From Acidiferrobacteraceae bacterium (GTDB taxonomy: Bacteria > Pseudomonadota > Gammaproteobacteria > HyVt-429), in the NCBI GenBank assembly GCA_011052015.1, contig DRJZ01000056.1:1-38390 (forward strand): a stretch of 38,390 nucleotides of DNA. The letters are read 5' to 3'. Position 1 is the stretch's first letter. The number at the start of each line of letters is the position of its first letter. A model generated the notes under the pieces. It ran no database searches. It was given only the letters and a program-made list of their open reading frames with translations, and was not told where the DNA came from. Both the position numbers and the translations under genes were made by a program. Shown piece by piece: positions 15,003 to 15,050 of the stretch.

Positions 15003-15018
15003 TGTTTCACGTGAAACA
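15003..15018. promoter_or_regulatory. parS site (ParB binding)
   Basis: The 16-bp perfect palindrome TGTTTCACGTGAAACA is identical to the canonical chromosomal parS consensus. It nucleates ParB for origin segregation and SMC loading. It lies in the dnaN-gyrB gap. Confidence 0.93.
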
Positions 15019-15034
15019 TTTAGTCCTGGGCCGT

Positions 15035-15050
15035 TGTTTCACGTGAAACA
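15035..15050. promoter_or_regulatory. Second parS site, abutting the dnaN stop codon
   Basis: A second exact TGTTTCACGTGAAACA lies 32 bp (about three helical turns) from the first. It ends at the base immediately before the complement of the dnaN stop codon. Confidence 0.93.

Follow-up and report, generated by a model that had tools for sequence, protein, structure and literature searches.

The Spo0J-parS system of Bacillus subtilis belongs to the same 16-bp parS family as the sites described here. In Pseudomonas aeruginosa, parS1 and parS2 have been published as lying inside recF (PMC5521831; PMC3909081). The last letter of parS1 is C and that of parS2 is A, and segregation in this organism needs no more than a single one of parS1-4, whichever it is (PMC4368675). 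The placement of recF between dnaN and gyrB is itself widespread in bacteria (PMC1193525). The parts of the locus presented below are of known kinds, and parS near dnaN or within recF has published precedents.

The dnaN-gyrB Region of the Window

The window is the whole stretch of DNA that was analyzed, i.e., 38,390 nucleotides of contig DRJZ01000056.1 from an Acidiferrobacteraceae bacterium. The region under study contains the following features:

12507-14954, minus strand: gyrB, DNA gyrase subunit B (TIGR01059, 996.8 bits)
14955-15050, minus strand: dnaN-gyrB intergenic gap of 96 bp, the usual place of recF, with no detectable recF remnant except the parS sequence itself
15003-15018, unstranded: gyrB-proximal parS, a perfect palindrome, TGTTTCACGTGAAACA (exact 16-bp match)
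15035-15050, unstranded: dnaN-proximal parS, adjoining the dnaN stop codon (exact 16-bp match of TGTTTCACGTGAAACA)
15051-16151, minus strand: dnaN, sliding clamp (TIGR00663, 353.5 bits)
16372-17721, minus strand: dnaA (TIGR00362, 573.7 bits)
17773-17781: perfect DnaA box TTATCCACA, just upstream of dnaA

These coordinates bear out the original prediction, which placed two perfect parS palindromes 32 bp apart in the gap, one of them touching the dnaN stop codon, and hence a parS pair inside the initiator gene cluster. The 32 bp is the distance between the starts of the sites, and the spacer between them is 16 bp. The gene order is consistent with an oriC upstream of dnaA, approximately 2.7 kb from the parS pair; the window contains four TTATCCACA boxes, which is near the chance number. 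Elsewhere in the window (20370-25796), the gene after mnmE is not mnmG but one on the opposite strand for a BarA/TorS-like hybrid histidine kinase.

With up to 3 mismatches allowed, the sole other match to TGTTTCACGTGAAACA in the window is at position 35212 (3 mismatches), and shuffled windows yield a mean of 0.24 such matches. A search of the 2.64-Mb genome detected no further parS within 2 mismatches beyond the pair, and the chance expectation for one exact 16-mer in 2.6 Mb of random sequence is approximately 6e-4. ParB, whose presence the original prediction had depended on, is encoded once on the chromosome, beside ParA and in the order rsmG-parA-parB, on a contig (C52) separate from that of the window (TIGR00180, 202.5 bits). 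This ParB matches solved ParB/Spo0J/Noc structures with E-values down to 1e-54 and contains the GERRWRA motif. The locus has the sequence attributes of a putative chromosomal ParABS centromere: a parS palindrome, a cognate ParA and ParB, a location in the origin region and conservation of the sites.

The original prediction left open whether recF was elsewhere or lost, and it is the loss that holds: no match in the genome exceeds the curated cut-off, and the best partial matches fall in frames of other proteins at other places. Both recR and recO were detected. The order to which this bacterium belongs is represented by four genomes, each 92-94% complete, from three genera of a single family. 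All four have recR and recO over the cut-off and none has recF, which rules out an assembly gap as the only cause of its absence. The dnaN-gyrB gap carries a parS pair in all four, with no further core elsewhere in these genomes, and the recF remnant that the original prediction had allowed for in the gap of relatives is not found there. The nearest relative (G002, L015/L027) has identical parS sites at the identical 32-bp spacing, and its 16-bp spacer has diverged. Reading the window sites in frame as VFHVKQ and MFHVKH, like the sites in RecF, is not diagnostic, since the preceding base differs in relatives. The contig carrying L026 (G001:C39) has mnmG-like and rsmG-like frames ~11-14 kb from the parS pair, with several genes separating mnmG from mnmE; the parAB genes of G001 probably lie just past the end of this contig.

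parS Sites Within recF of Gammaproteobacteria

Across the class, recF is found over the cut-off in 294 of 369 genomes. Eighty recF-containing loci were examined. The source of most was the list of best-scoring recF, from which mainly one locus was taken for each family; a close parS pair seen earlier was the reason for including four (G108, G081, G133, and G250). A parS lies near codon 137 of recF in 66 of the 80 loci, and one near the 3′ end of the gene, as a rule 12 codons ahead of the stop, is likewise found in 66. Both sites are present in 60 loci and neither, in canonical form, in 8; the link between recF and parS is not universal. Where paired, the sites are a median of 621 bp apart (range 612-633), and 132 of 133 cores within recF share one codon phase, xTG TTY CAC GTG RAA, which encodes FHV[EK]. 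The window locus would be a gene-less derivative of such a recF-embedded pair: the two sites lie between dnaN and gyrB as the embedded sites do, and they are not in frame within recF, which is absent from both gap and genome.

FHV[EK] is conserved at both positions of RecF in most of the sampled recF-containing genomes, and parS within recF could on that ground be taken as a by-product of a conserved peptide, which would make the connection with recF meaningless. The codons speak so strongly against this reading that we give it hardly any credence. Wherever FHV[EK] is encoded, synonymous codons are nearly absent, the exact parS codons being used in 66 of 67 cases at one position and 66 of 68 at the other (132/135), vs. 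an expectation of 5.7 per position, or ~11 in total, from the codon usage of dnaN and gyrB. The nominal probabilities of this codon choice, ~1e-75, ignore the kinship of the rows and so overstate their independence. The peptide also varies where parS is absent (FHAE, FHQS, FYQF, FQLA, and WYLK). RecF of E. coli has FHNE and FTVE at these positions, and no parS core is found in E. coli from dnaA to gyrB; Enterobacteriaceae, including E. coli, are without par genes (PMC3909081). Because the parS codons are almost always used and the peptide drifts without parS, both RecF motifs are shaped by a constraint on the DNA and not on the protein. In one genome (G027, recF locus L165), a variant core, CACATG (GTTCCACATGGAAC or its complement), occupies both recF sites, and the same change at both turns FHVE into FHME, as if both sites had followed a changed ParB.

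Probable Loss of recF Around parS

The original prediction stated that parS replaces recF. Since most recF-containing Gammaproteobacteria already have parS inside recF, this relation is reversed: the best reading of the sequences is that recF would have been removed from around parS, and not that parS moved into the place of recF. Thirty-one recF-less loci in which dnaN is next to gyrB were examined. One or two parS sites are present in the gap of 26, with 43 cores in total vs. 7e-5 expected (equal bases), and gaps with two sites have a spacing of 25-197 bp. The gap of G332 (L062) contains variant cores only, with the core CACATG (GTTCCACATGGAAC or its complement). A canonical core occurs in the gap of 25 recF-less genomes, and 24 of them have none anywhere outside the gap; only G085 has a further canonical core, ~13 kb away. 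On a quick tree the five recF-less loci that lack parS in the gap cluster together, and their genomes have parS elsewhere or none. Searches of the RecF profile against the six frames of all 31 gaps gave only weak matches, and those inspected were rejected as recF remnants, as the part that aligns is the FHVE spelled by parS.

Several loci have forms other than an intact recF or a bare gap. In G112 (L084), recF is broken by stops and carries TGTTTTACGTGAAACT, which has 2 mismatches, at the codon-137 position, ~395 bp into recF; this recF and its parS are possibly decaying together, which makes G112 a candidate intermediate. G201 (L094) retains only a recF fragment between dnaN and gyrB, without parS, and no canonical parS core is found anywhere in its genome. 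In G119, an Oxidored_FMN/Pyr_redox gene stands in the place of recF and is followed by a parS array and then gyrB. The array consists of ~14 tandem 43-bp units, most with a parS core, directly upstream of gyrB (L099:1244-1858 of G119:C48, and L100 at the end of G119:C39; the two contigs overlap by 127 bp).

On a careful tree of DnaN and GyrB with 90 rows, the state of recF must have changed at least 6 times (6-8 in the bootstraps); the strongly supported branches alone force just 2 changes. These changes are most simply losses, because the dnaN-recF-gyrB placement is widespread in bacteria. RecF has apparently been lost around parS several times.

Origin and Role of the parS Pair in the Gap

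The explanation that we regard as probable is that the pair descends from an ancestral recF-embedded parS cluster, kept through repeated losses of recF as the sole centromere beside oriC. The ancestor would have had two in-frame parS sites ~620 bp apart in recF, dictating FHV[EK] near codon 137 and near the C-terminus of the protein. RecF would then have been lost in the ancestor of the order's single family and several other times, with one or two parS sites kept in place, since the cell continued to require a centromere at that spot. Retention of the sites, rather than their re-creation, is argued from parsimony, as the gaps show no recF letters other than those of parS. If the pair works like the ParABS systems that have been studied, the dnaN-gyrB gap would be the ParB-loading centromere of the chromosome: ParB-CTP clamps would load at both parS sites and spread over dnaN and gyrB, and ParA would move the ParB-parS complex so that the newly copied origin, ~2.7 kb away, is segregated. 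SMC would probably be loaded at the pair as well. One or two sites would be enough here, since P. aeruginosa can manage with just one high-affinity parS close to oriC.

Alternatively, parS could have arisen afresh between dnaN and gyrB once recF was lost, the position by oriC being a favorable one for a centromere. The absence of recF letters around the gap sites is compatible with such a gain, as are the spacing of 25-197 bp, in contrast to ~620 bp in recF, and a Caulobacter Tn5 screen in which the neighborhood of recF-gyrB proved to be a hot spot, as yet unexplained, for the insertion of new parS (PMC5815017). It is nonetheless unlikely, as parS would have to be regained at the same spot after each loss, although two sites were probably present there in the ancestor; moreover, close spacing coexists with recF in three loci (L122, L123, and L124), where the C-terminal parS of recF is accompanied, within ~40 bp, by a second parS immediately beyond the stop codon of the gene. 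The position of the pair directly upstream of gyrB also raises the question of whether the palindromes are mainly a ParB operator for the expression of gyrB (or dnaN-gyrB) and not a centromere. Excess ParB does lower gyrB mRNA in P. aeruginosa in a manner dependent on parS1-4, but native ParB left the genes beside the intragenic parS1/2 unchanged (PMC5521831), and gyrB transcription in Caulobacter was unaltered by parS near gyrB (PMC5815017). In addition, the gap yielded no sigma-70-like promoter, and the genome's only parS sites must also serve ParABS if ParABS works. An operator as the main role is thus quite improbable, and more so than a new gain.

Retention of an ancestral centromere also bears on the class as a whole. 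We lean slightly toward the broader proposal that the ancestor of most Gammaproteobacteria had a centromere in recF that dictated two RecF peptides, that the position of this DNA between dnaN and gyrB was selected above RecF, and that recF was repeatedly discarded while the centromere stayed, often as the only one of the genome. A centromere would thereby have been overprinted on a recombination gene, fixing two RecF motifs through the needs of the DNA, and would then have outlived the gene. This would give a reason for the location of P. aeruginosa parS1 and parS2 in recF. The loci would form a natural series, from recF with parS through broken recF to a gap with parS only, in which gene loss around needed DNA sites can be followed; they caution that conserved RecF motifs need not mean protein function, and they make the constancy of the dnaN-gyrB position testable. 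Neither the recF-embedded pair as a class-wide pattern nor its survival through repeated loss of recF was found reported in the literature searched, which did not cover the parS survey of Livny et al. (2007), and the novelty of the pattern is accordingly unproven.

Comparison with Known Systems

A close likeness is seen in P. aeruginosa, whose parS1 and parS2 are the pair closest to oriC and lie at the dnaN-recF-gyrB locus. The endings of these sites, GAACC in parS1 and GAACA in parS2, recur in many of the sampled recF genes, at the codon-137 site and the C-terminal site, respectively. On the other hand, parS1 and parS2, out of 10 parS sites in all, lie in an intact recF, whereas the present genome has lost recF and has no parS apart from the pair. 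Xanthomonas citri resembles the window locus in having parS (2753..2768) at the dnaN 3′ end, immediately next to that gene's limit, and ~3 kb from the origin (PMC3937727); a single parS, ending in G, has been reported there, in contrast to the two sites found here. The Caulobacter data resemble the present ones in that the recF-gyrB neighborhood tolerates or favors parS, but they come from parS inserted by experiment at a distance from the native parS cluster (PMC5815017). Finally, the ParB of the window genome matches the B. subtilis Spo0J structures 1vz0 and 6sdk, while B. subtilis has around ten parS sequences (PMC7022226) and the genome described here has one compact pair.
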